Positions 3,256-14,534 of a stretch of 20,565 nt of DNA are shown piece after piece. The DNA comes from a virus. The notes beneath the pieces were generated by a model. The model did no database searches and had not been told where the DNA came from. It was given only the letters and a program-made list of their open reading frames with translations. The translations under genes were made by a program, and so were the position numbers. The number at the start of each line of letters is the position of its first letter. The stretch's first letter is position 1. Location of the stretch: the IMG/VR virus record IMGVR_UViG_3300044678_001267, positions 1 through 20,565 of that record; one strand, given 5' to 3'.

Positions 3256-3353
3256 TGTCTGATAACATAATTTTAAAAGAAATTGCAATTGCAAAACTAG
3301 TTGCACTAGGTTTAACAGAAGAAGAACTTAAAGCAATAGGAATCGGTGAATAA
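3255..3353 (+). CDS. 32-residue helical micro-protein
   Basis: The gene is bounded on both sides by TAATG overlaps (3253-3257 and 3351-3355), which is strong evidence for a translated frame even though it encodes only 32 residues. The product is predicted to be one or two short helices: LKEIAIAKLVALGLTEEELK, then AIGIGE. The LGLTEEELKAI stretch looks like the helix-turn-helix-like ends seen in short phage tail-associated peptides, but I recognise no family. It may be a small structural peptide or may serve mainly to couple translation of the genes around it. Confidence 0.6.
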   Translation: MSDNIILKEIAIAKLVALGLTEEELKAIGIGE

Positions 3354-4003
3354 TGCCATCATTAAATACTACTGGTAAAACAGCATACGTTTACGATCAA
3401 GAAACAGACACATTTTACGCACTTGGTGCAAACACAAACACTGCTGCAAATTATATTTGGTCTGGAACACAAGAATTTCAAAACAATGTTACATTTGCAG
3501 ATACCAATGCAGTAATTACTGCTAAGGCTGGAATAAACAACTTTTTAAATCCTTCAGCAAGAGATGCAGCATTATCTGCACCAGTAAGAGGAACAGTTTG
3601 TTTTGTTAGACAAACCGCAGGTGCTGTAGCAATTAATGATTTACAATTTTACAACGGAACTAATTGGATATCTTATGGTGGTTTAGTTACCTTTAATAAG
3701 CAGGCTGGTAGCGGAACACAAAATTATGATTTAACATTAAGTGATATTGGTCAAAGTATAACTTTTGATTCTACAGGAGCATGGACAGTAACTATTCCAC
3801 CTAATTCAAGTATTGCTTTTCCAATAGGATCAGAAATAGATGTTTTTAGAATGAATACTGGGTCTGTTACATTTGTTGCAGGTGCAGGAGTTACTTTAAA
3901 TAGTAAAAATGCAAATAAAGCAATTGCAGCAAGGTACTCAGGTGCATCCTTGTTTAAGTTTGATACAAACACCTGGCTTCTAGTCGGCGACTTGATCGCA
4001 TAG
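3353..4003 (+). CDS. Tail fibre protein with C-terminal adhesin module (shared with gene at 10128)
   Basis: This is a 216-residue protein. The N-terminal part contains a strand-rich segment with VYDQETDTFYALG. Residues 85-110 (VCFVRQTAG...LQFYNGTNWISYGG) resemble the common fibre hairpin YNGT.W. Residues 115-216 form a module also found at the end of the 591-residue fibre at 10128: TVTIPPNSSIAFPIGSEIDV here, LTIPLNSAVAFPVGTSIDIL there, and both finish NTW(L/V)(L/V)xGDL(I/T)A. Such shared C-terminal modules are usually receptor-binding or trimer-closing domains. The start overlaps the previous stop, so translation is probably coupled. It ends just before a ribosome binding site for the PASTA-Hint protein. 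Confidence 0.8.
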   Translation: MPSLNTTGKTAYVYDQETDTFYALGANTNTAANYIWSGTQEFQNNVTFADTNAVITAKAGINNFLNPSARDAALSAPVRGTVCFVRQTAGAVAINDLQFYNGTNWISYGGLVTFNKQAGSGTQNYDLTLSDIGQSITFDSTGAWTVTIPPNSSIAFPIGSEIDVFRMNTGSVTFVAGAGVTLNSKNANKAIAARYSGASLFKFDTNTWLLVGDLIA

Positions 4004-4012
4004 GGGTTTGCT

Positions 4013-4918
4013 ATGGCATTATTTGGAAAACTAGTTAAATACGTTGTAAAAAAAGGAATGAAACTGGTTCCTAATTTTATTGGAAGAACAAGTGCACAGG
4101 CTCAAGCAGATGTTGTATCTGAAGGTTTTGTTTTAGGTAATGTAACCACTACAGTTTCTGGAGAACCTGCTGAATTAGCAAACGATGGATTAATTGTTGA
4201 ACAAATTCCCGCAGTTACAACACCAGCAGATTATGAAGCAACTGTTGATTTGACCGTAAGGCAGTTTAGTTTTACACCATTTGGTGTATTTGGGTTTTCT
4301 CCTTTTACAGTATTTGGGTTTTCTCCTTTTAACGTATTTGGTTTTTCTCCCTTTAACGTATTTGGATTTTCACCATTTAGAGTATTTGGATTTTCACCAA
4401 TTTCATATGGATTTACACCTACTTATTGTATAGATGAAAATACACCAGTATTAACTAAAGAAGGATATAAGTTAGCAAAAGATATAGTTGTTGAAGATAT
4501 ATTAATTACTAAAACTTTTGACGGTTTACCTATAACAAACCACGAAGGATTAAAATCTTGGTCAGGTGATGTAGTTACTGAGTATAACACTGTAGAGTCT
4601 AAAGTAACAAACATTAAAAAAACCAATGTTTCTGAAACTATTATAATTAACGATGATATTTATAAAAGATTTTCTACTCAAGAAGATATTTTAGTAATAA
4701 GAGATAATAAACTAATATTTTGTGTTGCTTCTGAATTAAAAATAAATGATCAAATAGCAAAAAGTCCAACCGAAATGATTGGCGATCAAGCAGCATGTAT
4801 TGTTTATAAAATAGAAACAGTAAAAGAAGATAGAGATGTTTATGATTTTATGAGAGAACCATTTGGCTTGGTTGTAGCAGATTCTTTACTTGTATATAAC
4901 GCTTATCCAGTAAATTAA
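4013..4918 (+). CDS. PASTA - FxVFGFSP repeat - Hint domain tail protein
   Basis: This 301-residue protein has three parts. Residues 18-82 resemble one PASTA domain (LVPNFIGRTSAQAQADV start, VEQIPAV middle, ATVDLTV end), a fold known for binding peptidoglycan. Residues 90-129 are five tandem octapeptides F(G/T/N/N/R)VFGFSP. Cys139 then opens a Hint domain: YCIDENTPVLTKEGYKLAKDI fits Hint block A, and the protein ends GLVVADSLLVYN (Asn296) plus AYPVN. Hint domains self-process at the N-terminal Cys and C-terminal Asn. The usual block B T..H is replaced by STQED, and no Cys, Ser or Thr follows the last Asn. It is therefore closer to a bacterial intein-like domain than to a splicing intein. AGGGG lies six to seven bases before the start. 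The stop overlaps the convergent lysozyme gene. A paralogue lies at 11935. Confidence 0.85.
   Translation: MALFGKLVKYVVKKGMKLVPNFIGRTSAQAQADVVSEGFVLGNVTTTVSGEPAELANDGLIVEQIPAVTTPADYEATVDLTVRQFSFTPFGVFGFSPFTVFGFSPFNVFGFSPFNVFGFSPFRVFGFSPISYGFTPTYCIDENTPVLTKEGYKLAKDIVVEDILITKTFDGLPITNHEGLKSWSGDVVTEYNTVESKVTNIKKTNVSETIIINDDIYKRFSTQEDILVIRDNKLIFCVASELKINDQIAKSPTEMIGDQAACIVYKIETVKEDRDVYDFMREPFGLVVADSLLVYNAYPVN
4280..4399 (+). repeat. Five tandem 24-bp coding repeats (FxVFGFSP)
   Basis: Each 24-base unit encodes one octapeptide. The variable residue reads G, T, N, N, R in order. A nearly identical peptide array lies at 12553-12672 in another gene. Confidence 0.95.
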
Positions 4919-5490
4919 TCTTTAGGAAACTGGTACATAAATTCTCTAGTTTTTGAAGTTATGCCTTTCCAAGGTCCCCAATTTTTTCCACCATCACTCA
5001 TTATGTAAGCAACTTGACAGTTAATTGATGGATTTAAAAGTTGACTAGTGTAGTCTAAATTATATTTTTCTTTTCTATCAGCATTAAGGTCACCAATCAT
5101 ATTTATTTGAAATAATCCGTATGACTTGTCTCCAGTGCTTTTATTGCCATTAAAAGCCAAGGCGTTACCCATTGATTCTTTTTTAACAATGGCCCAAGCC
5201 TCAACTAAGTGTTTATTTTCAAAACCACAAGCAGATAGCAAAGTTTTTAGTTCAATGTCAGTAAGTTGTCCTTTATCCTGATATTCAGCAAGGGTTCTTA
5301 CATTATCTCTAGATGGTTTATTTAAATGATCTGGCCTAGAAAGCAAAAAAACCGCCTCAGCGGTAAATGTTGCATATTTATCGTTTTTCAGGTTAGTTTC
5401 AACACCTTGAGCATTAGAAATGTTCAAAAATACTGAAGATAATCCAAGACTTGCGAGCAATCCTATTAAAAATTTTTTATCTTTTTTCAT
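4915..5490 (-). CDS. Secreted lysozyme-like / lytic transglycosylase-fold peptidoglycan hydrolase
   Basis: This is the only convincing minus-strand gene, with 191 residues. Residues 1-27 form a signal peptide: a lysine-rich start, a hydrophobic core (FLIGLLASLGLSSVFL) and SNA before the likely cleavage at 27/28. The mature part has AWAIVKKES with Glu105 as the likely catalytic acid, then SYGLFQIN, the classic lysozyme/SLT signature. NPSINCQVAYIM and WGPWKGI follow. Cys88 and Cys158 could form a disulfide outside the membrane. It would cleave glycan strands of the host wall during lysis or entry. A ribosome binding site (AGGAGAG), a promoter at 5539-5567 and a palindrome at the start site serve it alone. 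Its stop overlaps the converging plus-strand gene by four bases. Confidence 0.88.
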   Translation of the reverse strand: MKKDKKFLIGLLASLGLSSVFLNISNAQGVETNLKNDKYATFTAEAVFLLSRPDHLNKPSRDNVRTLAEYQDKGQLTDIELKTLLSACGFENKHLVEAWAIVKKESMGNALAFNGNKSTGDKSYGLFQINMIGDLNADRKEKYNLDYTSQLLNPSINCQVAYIMSDGGKNWGPWKGITSKTREFMYQFPKD

Positions 5491-6827: not shown

Positions 6828-7559
6828 ATGACTAAAAAAGAAAAACCTAACATTTTTATAGCAACCCCAATGTACGGTGGGGTTTGTCATGGATACTTTA
6901 TGAAGAGCATTATGGGACTAGTAATGAAACTAACCTATAAAGGATACAAAGTAACGTTTAACGATTTATACAATGAATCTTTAATCAACAGAGCCAGAAA
7001 CACCCTTACAGAACTATTTTTAAGATCTGATGCTGACTACCTATTGTTTATTGATGGTGACGAAGGTTTTAACGCTGATGGTGTTATAGATATGATTGAT
7101 GCAGATTTAGATATTATTGGGGCTGCCGTGCCAATGAAAGCAATTAACTGGGCTAACGTAGAAAAAGCAGCAGAATTAAAAAAACCTGATTTGAAAAGGT
7201 TTGGATCTTATGTAAACATAAACTTTGTTGATAGACAAGACTTGCACAAGGTAGCAGATAATCCTAAAAAACCATTAGAGGTAAAAAACATAGGAACTGG
7301 TTTGCTGTTAATTAAACGTAATGTTTTTGAAACAATGAAAGAACATGTTGGAAAATATAAAAGTGATCAACTAGATTTGGGTGGTATTAAAAAAGGTGAA
7401 TACATTTATGATTTTTGGAAAACACAAGTAGACCCAGAAGAGGAAAGACTTTTGTCAGAAGACTACTATTTCTGTACACTATGGCGTAAACTTGGCGGTT
7501 CTGTATATGTAGCACCACACGTTAAGGTAGTGCACGTAGGAACCTATATATTTGTTTAA
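6828..7559 (+). CDS. GT-A fold glycosyltransferase (family 2-like)
   Basis: This 243-residue protein shows the layout of a GT-A glycosyltransferase. An N-terminal strand IFIATPMYGG is followed by RARN near residue 57. LLFIDGDEGF holds the metal- and sugar-nucleotide-binding DXD (Asp76, Asp78). IGAAVPMK and NIGTGLLLIKR follow, then SEDYYFCTLWRKLGG with Glu211-Asp212 as likely acceptor-side acids. The end is VAPHVKVVHVGTYIF. It would transfer a sugar from a nucleotide sugar in the host cytoplasm. Lying between tail genes, it could decorate virion proteins, phage DNA or a host surface polymer; the target is not shown. There is no signal peptide or membrane segment, and no clear ribosome binding site before the ATG. 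Confidence 0.85.
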   Translation: MTKKEKPNIFIATPMYGGVCHGYFMKSIMGLVMKLTYKGYKVTFNDLYNESLINRARNTLTELFLRSDADYLLFIDGDEGFNADGVIDMIDADLDIIGAAVPMKAINWANVEKAAELKKPDLKRFGSYVNINFVDRQDLHKVADNPKKPLEVKNIGTGLLLIKRNVFETMKEHVGKYKSDQLDLGGIKKGEYIYDFWKTQVDPEEERLLSEDYYFCTLWRKLGGSVYVAPHVKVVHVGTYIFV

Positions 7560-10127: not shown

Positions 10128-11903
10128 ATGGCAACAAGGATGCTACAACGTAGAGGAACTGCTGCACAGTGGGCTAATGCTAACCCTACTCTAGGTTCTG
10201 GAGAAATTGGTTTTGAAACCGACACAGGACAATTTAAAATGGGTGACAACTCTACAGCATGGGATGATTTGCCATACTTTAAAAATATAGAAGATCTAGG
10301 CGGAAACCTAGACGATTACATTTTATTAGAACAAAAAGGTGCAGCAAACGGTGTTGCTACATTAGATGGAAGCAATTTAATACCTACAGCACAGATACCT
10401 AGTGGTATTGCTAGAACTGCAGATTACGTTGCATTAACACAAAAAGGTGCAGCAAACGGTGTTGCCACATTAGATGGAAGCAATTTAATACCTGTAGCAC
10501 AAATACCAGATGCCATTGCTAGAGTTACATATGTAGCAAACGCAATTTCTAACGCTATATCAGATTTAACAAATAACGCACCAGCAATATTAGATACTCT
10601 TGCTGAACTGGCAAATGCCATTAACGATGATGGAGAGTTTTATTTAAGTATAGCAAATACTATTAATAATAGTTTAGATGCTGCTAATGAATACACAGAT
10701 AATAACATAAATACTTTAGCAAACAATGTTGCAGAACAAGCAGAACTACTAGCAAACACTGTTGCAAATAACCTTGCAAATGCAGTTGATACATTAACAA
10801 GTTCTATTGGAAATGTTGCAGGAAATCTAGAAGAAGAATTATTAGTTGTAGGAAACACAATAGCAAACGCAATCACAGATTTAGAAGAATACACAGATAA
10901 TGCAATTTCAGATCATAATCTAGAAACATTAAATGTGCACGGTATATCAAATACAGCAACACTTGTAACATTAACAGATTTAAGTAATCACGAAACTGAC
11001 ACATCAAACGTACATGGTATCACAAATACACTAGCAATAGTGTTTACAGATGATGCAAGACTTTCTGATGCAAGAACACCACTTGATAACTCTGTTACAA
11101 ATAACTCTATATCAGGAACAATCAATCAAGATAAAATTACAAACCTTGCAACAACACTAGGAAATCTAGCATCTCTTTCAGGTGCAGCCTTTACTGGTAA
11201 CGTTTCAACAACTGGTAATTTAACAGTAGACGGAGATTTCACTGTAAGTGGATCTAACGTTCTTGTGTCTGCAACACAAATTCAAATAGAGGACACTTTA
11301 CTACAACTTGGTCACACAAATGCTAACAACGTAGTAGATCTAGGTTTGGTGGTTTCTTATAATGATGGAACACAAAAACATGCTGGTATCGTCAAAGACG
11401 TTACAGATAGCAAATGGAAATTGTTTGATGGTGTTACATCAGAACCTGGAACAACAGTTAACTTTGGACAAGGTTCACTAGATGTCTTGGCACTTTTGAC
11501 ACTTGAGGCAAACTCAATCACTGCAACATCAGATATCACTGCAAACGGAATCGTATTTGCAGACGGTACACAAAGATTAGAAGGTGTACCTTCACGGACA
11601 CCAATTGTTCAAAAGACAGCAAGTTATACTTTGTCAGCATTGACTGAAAGAGACAACTTGGTAGAAATGGATAATGCTAGTGCAACAACACTAACTATTC
11701 CTCTTAATTCAGCAGTAGCCTTCCCAGTTGGAACATCAATTGATATTCTTCAAACTGGTGTAGGTCAAGTAACAATCGCAGGAGACGCAGGAGTAACAGT
11801 AAATGCTACACCAGGTCTCAAATTACGTACACGGTGGTCATCTGCTACTCTTTTCAAGAGAGCAACTAACACCTGGGTTGTATACGGCGATTTAACTGCA
11901 TAA
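10128..11903 (+). CDS. Large tail fibre protein (tropism-determinant type)
   Basis: This 591-residue protein has several modules. Residues 4-50 (MLQRRGTAAQWANANP, GEIGFETDTGQFKMGD, TAWDDLPY) match the N-terminal domain of phage tropism-determinant and fibre proteins. Two 36-residue repeats follow (QKGAANGVATLDGSNLIP). Long Asn/Ala-rich coiled-coil stretches include DLTNNAPAILDTLAELANAI. Around 367-460 a domain with IQIEDTLLQLGHTN and KHAGIVKDVTDSKWKLF is typical of marine phage fibres. Residues 494-591 form the adhesin module shared with the gene at 3353. It is probably a main receptor-binding fibre. A ribosome binding site (AAGGAG) and a hairpin-bearing leader precede it. Confidence in a fibre role is high; the receptor is unknown. 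Confidence 0.9.
   Translation: MATRMLQRRGTAAQWANANPTLGSGEIGFETDTGQFKMGDNSTAWDDLPYFKNIEDLGGNLDDYILLEQKGAANGVATLDGSNLIPTAQIPSGIARTADYVALTQKGAANGVATLDGSNLIPVAQIPDAIARVTYVANAISNAISDLTNNAPAILDTLAELANAINDDGEFYLSIANTINNSLDAANEYTDNNINTLANNVAEQAELLANTVANNLANAVDTLTSSIGNVAGNLEEELLVVGNTIANAITDLEEYTDNAISDHNLETLNVHGISNTATLVTLTDLSNHETDTSNVHGITNTLAIVFTDDARLSDARTPLDNSVTNNSISGTINQDKITNLATTLGNLASLSGAAFTGNVSTTGNLTVDGDFTVSGSNVLVSATQIQIEDTLLQLGHTNANNVVDLGLVVSYNDGTQKHAGIVKDVTDSKWKLFDGVTSEPGTTVNFGQGSLDVLALLTLEANSITATSDITANGIVFADGTQRLEGVPSRTPIVQKTASYTLSALTERDNLVEMDNASATTLTIPLNSAVAFPVGTSIDILQTGVGQVTIAGDAGVTVNATPGLKLRTRWSSATLFKRATNTWVVYGDLTA
10331..10493 (+). repeat. Two 55-bp near-identical direct repeats in fibre gene
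   Basis: Copies at 10331-10385 and 10439-10493 differ at about one base and have a 108-base period. Each encodes QKGAANGVATLDGSNLIP. They point to recent duplication or gene conversion inside the shaft. Confidence 0.85.
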
Positions 11904-11934: not shown

Positions 11935-13194
11935 ATGGCGATAGGTAAAAAAGCAGGTAGAAAGTCACAGCAGGCTAATGACTTTTTAGAACCACAGCAA
12001 CCAACAATTACTTCAGCAACTAACGTTGGTACAGGTCGGGCTTTTAATAATGGTGCAGTTGATGTATCATTTACACTACCAGTAAATTCTCCAGCAGCAA
12101 CAGGTTTTACAGTGACTTCAAGTCCTGGATCTCTTACAGCAACAGGTGCAACTTCTCCGTTGCAGGTTACAGGATTATCATCAGATACAAGTTATACTTT
12201 TACAGTTGTTGCAACTAATGCATCAGGTAACTCGATTGCTTCAGCAGCATCAAGTTCAGTAACTGTGACAACAGTACCTGCAACACCTGCAGCACCAACT
12301 GCATCATCACCAAACGCTGATCAAGATCAAATTTCATGGACTGCACCAGCAAATGGTGGATCAGCAATTACAAATTATTACTGGGAATCAACCGACAGTA
12401 AAAATGGAAATACTGGAACAGGAACCAGTGCATCATTGGGACAAGAACCAGGAACAGCACAACGGTACAAGGTTCGGGCAACTAACGCTAACGGAAACTC
12501 AGAATTTTCTGCACTATCAAATGAAGTAACTACAACATTTTCTTTCGTACCCTTTGGTGTATTTGGTTTCTCACCATTTACAGTGTTTGGTTTCTCACCA
12601 TTCAACGTATTCGGTTTCTCCCCATTCAGAGTATTTGGTTTCTCACCATTTAGAGTATTTGGTTTTTCACCAACTACATATTGTGTAGACGAAGATGCAC
12701 CAGTTCTTACAACAACTGGAAATAAAAAAGCAAAAGATATTGAACTTGGAGACATGTTAATTGTAAAAGCATTTGAAGAAATGCCTATTGGAGATTTACC
12801 TAAAGTTATTTTTTGGAAAAAGAAGGGTAATTTAACAAATTATAGAGAATTAGAAGCACAAGTAACTAAGATTACACCAACAACAGTACACGAAACTGTT
12901 ATGTTTAACAATAATCCAGATATGAGATTTTCTTTGTTAGAAGATATGTTTGTAATTAAAAATGGTATGTATCAATTCATATCTTCAAGAGAAATACAAC
13001 CTGGAGATAAGATAATCACAAGAGACTCTTTAATGGTAGTAGAAACTGTTGAAATAGTTAACGAAGAAAGAACTGTTTATAGTTTTGGAAGATATCCAAT
13101 TGGATTGGTCATAGCAGGGGGATTAGTTCATTATAATGAATTTGCTCCTGAAGAAATAGAAGTGCCAGAAGGTTGGACAGGACCAATTTACTAA
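11935..13194 (+). CDS. Two fibronectin III domains - FxVFGFSP repeat - Hint domain tail protein
   Basis: This 419-residue protein contains two fibronectin type III domains at about 22-112 (GLSSDTSYTFTVVATNASG) and 114-201 (ISWTAPANGGSAITNYYW, YKVRATNANGNSEFS). Residues 207-246 are five octapeptides F(G/T/N/R/R)VFGFSP. Cys250 opens a Hint domain (YCVDEDAPVLTTTGNKKAKDI) that ends LVIAGGLVHYN (Asn401), followed by an 18-residue acidic tail. The block B His is again missing (SLLEDMFV), and Glu follows the terminal Asn. It is a paralogue of the protein at 4013 with a different N-terminal adhesive part. Expected chemistry is cleavage at Cys250 and/or Asn401, but the missing His may weaken or alter it. 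Own promoter and AAGGAG upstream. Function in the virion is inferred from neighbours. Confidence 0.87.
   Translation: MAIGKKAGRKSQQANDFLEPQQPTITSATNVGTGRAFNNGAVDVSFTLPVNSPAATGFTVTSSPGSLTATGATSPLQVTGLSSDTSYTFTVVATNASGNSIASAASSSVTVTTVPATPAAPTASSPNADQDQISWTAPANGGSAITNYYWESTDSKNGNTGTGTSASLGQEPGTAQRYKVRATNANGNSEFSALSNEVTTTFSFVPFGVFGFSPFTVFGFSPFNVFGFSPFRVFGFSPFRVFGFSPTTYCVDEDAPVLTTTGNKKAKDIELGDMLIVKAFEEMPIGDLPKVIFWKKKGNLTNYRELEAQVTKITPTTVHETVMFNNNPDMRFSLLEDMFVIKNGMYQFISSREIQPGDKIITRDSLMVVETVEIVNEERTVYSFGRYPIGLVIAGGLVHYNEFAPEEIEVPEGWTGPIY
12553..12672 (+). repeat. Five tandem 24-bp coding repeats (FxVFGFSP), second array
   Basis: The array has the same repeat number and peptide as 4280-4399, but many synonymous codon differences. 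The variable residue reads G, T, N, R, R. Confidence 0.95.
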
Positions 13195-13242: not shown

Positions 13243-13908
13243 ATGAGACAAGGTCCACCACCAGAATTACGTGGTATTCAAGAATCAATTAAGCCACACA
13301 AATTTTTTGAAAGACATCTAAATAATGATTTAGATTTATTAGCAAATGAATTAACTGATAGATATCAAAGTATTGAAAAAGTAGAACTAGACGGTATTAC
13401 TCCAGTTAATAGTAAAGATTATTGGCAAGAGTCTGGTAGCGTTTCTACAGTTAAATGGAGAGAATATAACGTATTTCAATTTCATATTGATGGTATATAT
13501 GAGTTATATAAAAATATTCAAGACATGACGAAAGAGGCTTGTGAATATTATGAGATAGATTTTGAAAAACAAAGATTTATGTTGCAAGGATGGTTTAATA
13601 TAAATCATACCAAAAAAGGAAAACTAGACTGGCATGATCATGGACATACTGGTGCTCCAAATAATTTTCATGGATATTACTGCGTAAAAGCAGAACCATC
13701 ATCAACTTATTATAGAGTTTTTGGTAAAGATATGGAAAATAAAAATATTGATAATCGTGCTATTTTTTCAGAAATGGGACATCCTCATGCACAAGGTGAT
13801 TGGGATTGGGAAGGACCAAGAATTACAGTTGCATATGATGTTGTAACTTTGGAAGAGTTAAAACATGCTGGTAAAGATCATGAGCAACACTGGATACCTT
13901 TGATATGA
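13243..13908 (+). CDS. 2OG-Fe(II) oxygenase-like protein A
   Basis: In this 221-residue protein the core reads LQGWFNIN, then DWHDHGHTGAPNNFHGYYCV (His131, His133), a strand SSTYYRVF, and a later GHPHAQGDW (His180, His182) ending GPRITVAYDV (Arg193). The order H.H - GYY.V - H - RI(T/S)..(Y/F) resembles the 2OG-Fe(II) oxygenase family with an HxH-type first motif (TIGR02466/PF13759-like). His ligands would hold iron and the Arg would bind 2-oxoglutarate. The reaction would be hydroxylation of a protein, nucleotide or small molecule; the substrate is unknown. It overlaps its paralogue by ATGA. The iron-ligand assignment is inference, and a related cupin-fold enzyme is possible. Confidence 0.7.
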   Translation: MRQGPPPELRGIQESIKPHKFFERHLNNDLDLLANELTDRYQSIEKVELDGITPVNSKDYWQESGSVSTVKWREYNVFQFHIDGIYELYKNIQDMTKEACEYYEIDFEKQRFMLQGWFNINHTKKGKLDWHDHGHTGAPNNFHGYYCVKAEPSSTYYRVFGKDMENKNIDNRAIFSEMGHPHAQGDWDWEGPRITVAYDVVTLEELKHAGKDHEQHWIPLI

Positions 13909-14534
13909 TAAAGGAAAAACCAGAACATAAATTTTTTGAAAGATATGTTGACAATGATCTAACGCAACTTTCAAGATATTTGTTAAAACTTGAAAAAGAT
14001 TTATTTGAAGGGGTCTATCCAAAAGTTTCTAAAGAATTTGCTAATAATATTGGTGGTGTTCATAATTTAGGAACAAAGTTTAATATTTTTCAATGCTATA
14101 ACCCACAAATTCACAAGTTGTTTTCTGCACTTAGAGAACTAACTATAGAGGCTTGTGAGTATTACGATATTGATTATAAAAAACAATCTTACATGGTTCA
14201 GGGTTGGTTTAACACAGACGGAATAGCAGAACCACCAATTAATGAATCAACTCATTATCACGATCATCTAGGTGGTACTGGTGCACCAAACTTTCATGGT
14301 TATTACTGTGTAGATGCTGAGCCATCTTTTACTTATTATAAAATTGGTGGTCAAGATAAAGAATCAATTCAAAATATTAACAAAAACAATAGAGCCATAT
14401 TGTCAGAAACTGGTCACCCACATGGAATAGGTCCTTGGCCTTTTGATAAACCAAGAATTACTATTGCTTATGATATATCTCCAGTTACTCATATGAGTGG
14501 AAGTGAATTACAACATTGGGTTCCTTTACCTTAA
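13905..14534 (+). CDS. 2OG-Fe(II) oxygenase-like protein B (tandem paralogue)
   Basis: This 209-residue protein is clearly related to the preceding one along its length: HKFFER at the start, EACEYYDIDYKKQSYMVQGW, HYHDHLGGTGAPNFHGYYCV (His119, His121), ILSETGHPHGIG (His171, His173), PRITIAYDI (Arg184), and the ending LQHWVPLP. The conserved residues of the metal and cosubstrate sites are kept in both copies, so both are probably active and may act on different substrates or as a heteromer. It begins inside the stop of protein A (ATGA, 13905-13908), implying translational coupling; there is no separate promoter. The N-terminal third has diverged most, consistent with a substrate-specific lid. 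Confidence 0.7.
   Translation: MIKEKPEHKFFERYVDNDLTQLSRYLLKLEKDLFEGVYPKVSKEFANNIGGVHNLGTKFNIFQCYNPQIHKLFSALRELTIEACEYYDIDYKKQSYMVQGWFNTDGIAEPPINESTHYHDHLGGTGAPNFHGYYCVDAEPSFTYYKIGGQDKESIQNINKNNRAILSETGHPHGIGPWPFDKPRITIAYDISPVTHMSGSELQHWVPLP

Follow-up and report, generated by a model that had tools for sequence, protein, structure and literature searches.

Two array-linked Hint proteins in one viral window

Within the window, i.e., the whole analyzed stretch of viral DNA (20,565 nucleotides), an open reading frame on the plus strand (4013..4918) encodes a protein of 301 aa in which a PASTA domain, an octapeptide array and a C-terminal Hint domain follow one another. The PASTA domain (residues 19-82, 4067..4258) is a real yet marginal match to Pfam PF03793, scoring 23.9 bits (cut-off, 23.2). 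It is followed by an aromatic-proline array (residues 85-130, 4265..4402) of five VFGFSP units starting at residues 92, 100, 108, 116, and 124. Over residues 85-138, 32 of 46 comparisons at a period of eight are identities (shuffle mean, 7.5), a score reached by none of 20,000 shuffles, and synonymous differences set the units apart in the DNA without altering VFGFSP. The Hint domain occupies residues 139-301 (4427..4915): the segment CIDENTPVL begins at Cys139, and the C-terminus, SLLVYNAYPVN, holds Asn296. The reading frame, the PASTA-like domain, the repeat-plus-Hint architecture and both terminal motifs had been noted in a preliminary description made from the sequence, and all of them were confirmed. 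That description was incomplete, however, as it lacked a second copy of the same module.

This second copy is a paralogous plus-strand gene (11935..13194) encoding 419 aa, with fn3 in two stretches (Pfam fn3, E 1.3e-9) in place of PASTA, the same array (12559..12672), and a Hint domain that starts at its Cys (12682..13191). The two products share 50% identity over residues 73-298 of the focal protein. Collagen-like, Mtd_N, and cement-like proteins are among the products of neighboring genes, and the region therefore looks like a structural gene block, with the focal gene set among fibre-like genes. We infer that both proteins are located in the virion.

Elsewhere in the window, the products of 3353-4003 and 10128-11903 share a C-terminal stretch of some 100 aa, and both match phrog_21510, 8780, and 18179. 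Two adjacent ORFs, 13243-13908 and 13905-14534, appear similar by eye (KFFERHLNNDL / KFFERYVDNDL) and are perhaps a tandem duplication. On the minus strand, an ORF at 4915-5490 converges with the PASTA gene, overlapping its end by 4 bases, and encodes an N-terminus that looks like a signal peptide by eye, together with an SLT_3 lysozyme-like domain.

The gene content suggests a likely actinobacterial host. The ribonucleotide reductase of the window is nearest to those of Actinomycetia phage DSL-LC01 (61.5%) and mycobacteriophage Gaia (60.6%), and WhiB was found over the cut-off in 12 of 28 records chosen for holding loci of the family, compared with 1 of 14 control genomes (Corynebacterium); the window's six closest records (G001-G005 and G008) lie outside the WhiB-positive 12, and the window itself lay outside that search. 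The nearest relatives of gene 6828-7556 belong to uncultured Manatee Spring phages, then to Stenotrophomonas and Caulobacter phages, and give no pointer to actinobacteria.

Distribution of the family and its alternative C-terminal ends

Similarity scans returned overlapping sets of 11, 35, and the best 80 of 84 loci, some of the last having been fetched with patterns that hold Cys1 (C[IV]D) or RFS, and a scan with the array pattern alone matched at least 119 stretches. Among the matches listed, 226 records yielded 97 distinct array ORFs, 59 of which have a C-terminal tail of at least 140 aa that inspection and alignment show to be Hint-like. The similarity loci added 23 Hint domains that lie behind other aromatic-proline arrays (e.g., FFAPPG), bringing the total to 82. 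Array-linked Hint proteins are a large family in IMG/VR contigs. In loci L064-L108, a similar fn3 protein with a Hint domain carries a different tandem repeat (FFAPPG, FFGPPR, or YSFVP) as its linker array.

The module is present in 25 of the 28 records, which were chosen for holding loci, and in two copies in 15 of them. A self-processing Hint domain on a phage tail protein had been called unusual, which agrees with the searchable literature discussed later; in this phage group, by contrast, the arrangement is common, at least among these chosen records. The three chosen records lacking a Hint match are those holding L044, L131, and L164. Hint-less relatives terminate just past the array: in L044, L131, L175, and L164, the gene ends right after FSVFGFR or NFAPWG, and does so in both paralogues of the contig. 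A third kind of end occurs in L038:122-673, L040:2521-3069, L042:9755-10303, and L116, where array proteins have a Cys-rich tail such as ...NFSNCCGAGSGAACATCSCRAC and no Hint domain; those of L038, L040, and L042 are of the PASTA type.

At least two array ORFs were present in 25 contigs, of which 24 could be compared, and the end class was the same in 23 of the 24 (13 Hint/Hint, 9 short/short, and 1 Cys-rich/Cys-rich), the exception pairing one Hint with one Cys-rich end; these classes were counted by hand, the contigs are partly related, and one PASTA ORF in the count is cut, with the start of its Hint domain visible. Capped and capless versions of one kind of protein thus exist, and the two genes tend to switch as a pair. 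This paired switching suggests that the array and the end form a functional module that two partner proteins have in common.

Protein databases already list relatives, named for PASTA or fn3. The nearest BFVD models, as aligned to the Hint model, are A0A6J5NY54 (68% identity) and A0A6J5NYB8 (37% identity) from an uncultured Caudovirales phage, whose names (PASTA and fn3, respectively) omit the Hint part. Among 50,697 records of named phages, the sole match of the focal protein was phage NCTB (E 3e-4), and the Hint domain of the paralogue alone gave one partial match (E 0.6); at the limits used, neither the paralogue at full length nor three further Hint types matched any of these records. A scan of a genome collection returned one short match of 19 residues in a Planctomycetaceae MAG.

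Fold of the C-terminal domain

Structure prediction and profile comparison both assign residues 139-301 to the Hint fold. An AF2 model covering residues 130-301, built with an alignment of the 59 array-linked domains, had a pLDDT of 90.5 and a pTM of 0.86; in a model of the full-length protein, the Hint domain alone was predicted with confidence (residues 1-137, pLDDT <50). The best Foldseek match in the PDB was 2lwy, a bacterial intein-like (BIL) domain of Clostridium thermocellum, followed by inteins, BIL2, and hedgehog. VIA-align superposed the model on 2lwy with a Z of 16.7 and an rmsd of 1.8 over 132 residues, and on hedgehog 1at0 with a Z of 15.1. The family sequence profile matched 2lwy (E 8.8e-8) and the Pho RadA intein (E 3.4e-6). 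The predicted structure contains the Hint horseshoe, whose absence would have spoken against the Hint domain that had been proposed, and the model is that of a member of the Hint superfamily.

At E 0.01, the focal Hint domain matched no family in Pfam, NCBIfam, or PHROGs. Within the set of 59, Pfam matches were to Intein_splicing (4), Hom_end_hint (4), and Hint (1), and NCBIfam matches to intein_Nterm (4). Weak Pfam matches to the unrelated families SpvD (2) and DrmE_C (1) were set aside. The PHROG family phrog_38766, annotated as "virion structural protein", was matched by 15 of the 59.

The resemblance to hedgehog bears on an idea put forward in the preliminary description, namely that a nucleophile on the virion or cell wall could take over a thioester at Cys139; such a transfer would anchor PASTA or fn3 and the array covalently. 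The fold, a nucleophile that is retained while the Asn is dispensable (see below), and the presence of a PASTA domain all fit this idea. In Hedgehog, however, a sterol-recognition region (Hog) follows the Hint domain, according to the parts of the review available to us (PMC7765530), whereas the focal protein ends with its Hint domain, which lies at the extreme C-terminus and has no extra recognition region past it. Moreover, no acceptor is known, and none of our sequence results indicates transfer chemistry. Thioester transfer to the wall or virion, for which little more than the fold and the kept nucleophile speaks, is therefore improbable.

Active-site residues and their conservation

The active site of the focal Hint domain is non-canonical. 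Cys139 (4427..4429) stands at position 1 as the block A nucleophile. HMMER alignment pairs the block B Thr-Pro-Ser-His of the Pho RadA intein with a Ser-x-x-Glu, so that Ser221 (4673..4675) takes the Thr position and Glu224 (4682..4684) the His position of the canonical Thr-x-x-His. In block G, Asn296 (4898..4900) is preceded by Tyr295, where His is usual. The residue after it is Ala297 rather than the Cys, Ser, or Thr of an intein, and five residues after Asn296 take the place of a C-extein. The domain also departs from BIL type A, which ends in His-Asn without a +1 nucleophile, and from type B, which has all intein motifs save the C-terminal one (PMC7765530, seen in part), as block B is altered too. 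Hence, the domain was rightly called atypical, although the changed block B and block G residues had gone unnamed.

Across the family, the position-1 nucleophile is among the most consistent features. Untrimmed, the alignment of the 59 array-linked domains has Cys at position 1 in 47, Ser in 12, and no other residue, which bears out the proposed Cys nucleophile. This alignment (A3) serves as a check on the 67- and 82-domain sets, which were trimmed or located at position 1 by the C/S motif, so that their counts there (67/67 and 37/37) are partly due to that motif. Site rates were computed over 163 sites for 67 representatives at <95% identity. Position 139 (58 C, 9 S) tied for the lowest rate, position 295 (41 H, 23 Y, 2 F, 1 N) ranked 9th, and position 224 (29 E, 21 H, 17 Q) 11th, whereas the block G Asn ranked only 71st.

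Combining position 1 with the block B His position, the 82 domains divide into Cys/Glu (37), Cys/Gln (20), Cys/His (13), and Ser/His (12). Every Gln-type (20/20) and every Cys/His-type (13/13) domain keeps the HN end, compared with 5 of 37 of the Glu type, and Ser-type domains have an HD end in 10 of 12. The block B residue can differ between close relatives: the Hint domains of L093, L101, and L107 are 87-88% identical, with Gln in L093 and His in L101 and L107 (L101 vs. L093, 88%, 145/164).

Eight of the 82 domains retain Cys1, TxxH, and HN together (ending in HNK in six and in HNMYASK or HNMYAAK in two), and these could speak for a true intein or type A BIL that splices or ligates its flanking parts. 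The focal protein, by contrast, has Tyr-Asn rather than His-Asn, Ala at +1, and only five residues after the Asn, which itself is lost in 7 of 25 members of its own clade, making this reading very improbable.

That focal clade (25 members, picked from the tree by eye, bootstrap 44) has 13 invariant sites of 163. C139, S221, and E224 are among these, whereas the two sites between the Ser and the Glu, 222 and 223, show eight and six different residues. The naive probability that all three named positions fall within the 13 is 4e-4, a figure to be read with the fact that C139 and S221 were in the search patterns for some loci. The penultimate position is Tyr in 23 of the 25, and the F:13 site, placed by hand, is Gly in all 25. 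Asn296, on the other hand, is kept in only 18, and the C-terminal Asn chemistry presumed in the preliminary description is thus not maintained. Taken together, the counts at position 1 and at the Asn indicate that the nucleophile is kept throughout and the Asn step is lost in places.

As for the proposed cleavage at Cys139, the fold and the Cys nucleophile support it, but it cannot be assumed, because active-site residues are changed, including the penultimate His to Tyr295. These same changes, of the block B and the penultimate His in the focal clade, also speak for a catalytically dead Hint domain kept as a folded structural or oligomerisation cap, with Cys139 serving in packing, metal binding, or a disulphide. 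The Cys-rich tails and short ends found at this place in other genomes point the same way, in that an inert end piece is tolerated. By contrast, a position 1 restricted to Cys or Ser in all 59 domains, which is the nucleophile set of inteins, and a Ser and Glu that are fixed while neighboring residues vary are harder to reconcile with a dead domain, and Ser at position 1 is incompatible with a disulphide role.

Selection and apparent domain swapping

Selection, measured as dN/dS against the window sequences, differs between the two paralogues. For the fn3-type orthologues L016, L017, L019, and L020, dN/dS was 0.11-0.18 in the Hint domain, 0 in the array, and 0.35-0.44 in the fn3 part. The PASTA-type orthologues (n = 8) had higher values in the Hint domain (0.26-0.57), with 0.07-0.38 in the array, indicating that the focal Hint domain is less constrained than that of the paralogue. 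The PASTA-type values count in favor of a dead cap, while the low fn3-type values favor a removable one. In L021, the fn3 part is nearly identical (dN 0.035) and the Hint domain is far more distant (dN 0.31, dN/dS 0.45), which looks like a swap by recombination near the array.

A proposed removable cap without splicing

Our best reading, to which we assign a probability of roughly 0.45, is that the Hint domain is a removable C-terminal cap that uses N-terminal (Cys1) chemistry without splicing; a dead cap is a close and serious rival to it. Under the removable-cap reading, both proteins would be structural proteins of the fibre region that display PASTA or fn3 on a common aromatic-proline array, and each would be made with a C-terminal Hint cap. 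Cys139 would attack the Tyr138-Cys139 bond; Ser221 and Glu224 stand where Thr and His are usual, and the bulky Tyr138 would perhaps strain the scissile bond. The resulting thioester would then be hydrolysed or cleaved by a thiol, which would separate the cap from PASTA or fn3 and the array. Neither Asn cyclisation nor splicing would be needed; the mere five residues after Asn296 leave nothing to be ligated or released as cargo. The Hint domain would accordingly use only the N-terminal half-reaction.

The removable cap draws its support from the Hint fold, the Cys/Ser-only position 1, the invariance of C139, S221, and E224 in the focal clade, the low dN/dS of the fn3-type Hint domains, the phrog_38766 matches, and relatives that end after the array without a Hint domain. 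Precedents reported in the sources, as far as these were available, add to it: the rescue of an intein by its -1 residue, natural inteins without the block B His, and self-cleaving phage caps. Against it stand the importance of the block B His, the Tyr at the penultimate His position, the Gly at F:13, and the dN/dS of the PASTA-type Hint domains and of L021 (0.45). The bootstrap of 44 for the focal clade, the placing of position 1 by a C/S motif in the 67- and 82-domain sets, and the search patterns holding Cys1 or RFS also weigh against it.

The block B His is said to be highly conserved, and mutation of it to inactivate or inhibit the intein. Natural inteins that lack it are few; among those named are a degraded DnaB intein and also Tko CDC21-1, where a Lys is used (PMC7765530). 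However, large -1 residues restore the N-S acyl shift in a His73Ala Ssp DnaB intein (PMC6333167), so Tyr138 could possibly give steric help of this kind. A bulky -1 residue in place of the His was shown there in the laboratory, and the accessible text of the same study extends this to the speculation that some native inteins rely on one (Friedel et al., 2018; PMC6333167).

The family pattern fits natural compensation of this kind in part. Among Cys1 domains, the raw counts looked strong, as an aromatic residue precedes the Cys in 22 of 37 Glu-type, 5 of 20 Gln-type, and 0 of 13 His-type domains. Position -6 splits alike (Glu 23/29, Gln 7/17, and His 0/12), so that clade confounds the link between Glu and an aromatic -1 residue, and after thinning to <50% identity the Glu vs. 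His association is no longer significant (p 0.18). Of the 12 Ser1 domains with a His, 5 carry Tyr at -1. The residue before the Cys is unconserved and is Gly in 11 of the 20 Gln-type domains; steric strain does not account for these Gly residues, which count against the removable cap. We therefore demoted compensation by an aromatic -1 from evidence to a lead only. An internal Cys-Glu or Cys-Gln thioester was also considered. The more specific proposal, that a family with Glu or Gln for the block B His may still carry out the N-S acyl shift with Cys1, Ser, and Glu, perhaps with a bulky -1 residue, and may shed the cap from two array-sharing partners, is rather doubtful.

Relation to known systems and implications

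BIL domains of types A and B (2lwy; PMC4031507, PMC7765530) resemble the focal domain in their Hint fold, N-terminal Cys, and independence of a +1 nucleophile. The available parts of these sources place BIL domains in non-conserved, variable bacterial proteins and describe N-terminal cleavage as separable from splicing (PMC4031507, PMC7765530). The focal domain, unlike BILs, has SxxE for TxxH and Tyr-Asn in block G, and forms the very C-terminus of a phage fibre-type protein, where it follows an aromatic-proline array. In phage NCTB (LT598654, L012), three intein-annotated putative tail or large proteins (BN7874_132, _135, and _136) lie in one gene block; BN7874_132 differs from the focal protein in having TQQH and HN behind a Gly run, with no FGFSP array, and BN7874_136 shares 24% identity with the focal Hint domain. 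Self-cleaved C-terminal caps are known from the K1F tailspike and T5 fibre chaperones, where the cap is removed after the fibre has folded (PMC10579305). The same source, as far as available, describes these caps as an alpha-helical body with beta-hairpin tentacles that is cut at a Ser, whereas the focal cap has a Hint fold, and the likeness is an analogy only. Searches of 5.39 million open-access papers, outside which most subscription papers and preprints lie, turned up no phage fibre protein with an array plus Hint; the papers found on Hint domains or inteins, seen in part, concern terminase, helicase, or reductase genes, and one review of jumbo phages mentions neither term.

The His, Gln, and Glu variants of this family, together with its Hint-less versions, are a natural test of the loss or rewiring of a self-cleaving site. 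If the domain is active, phages would gain a second, Hint-based type of removable fibre cap.
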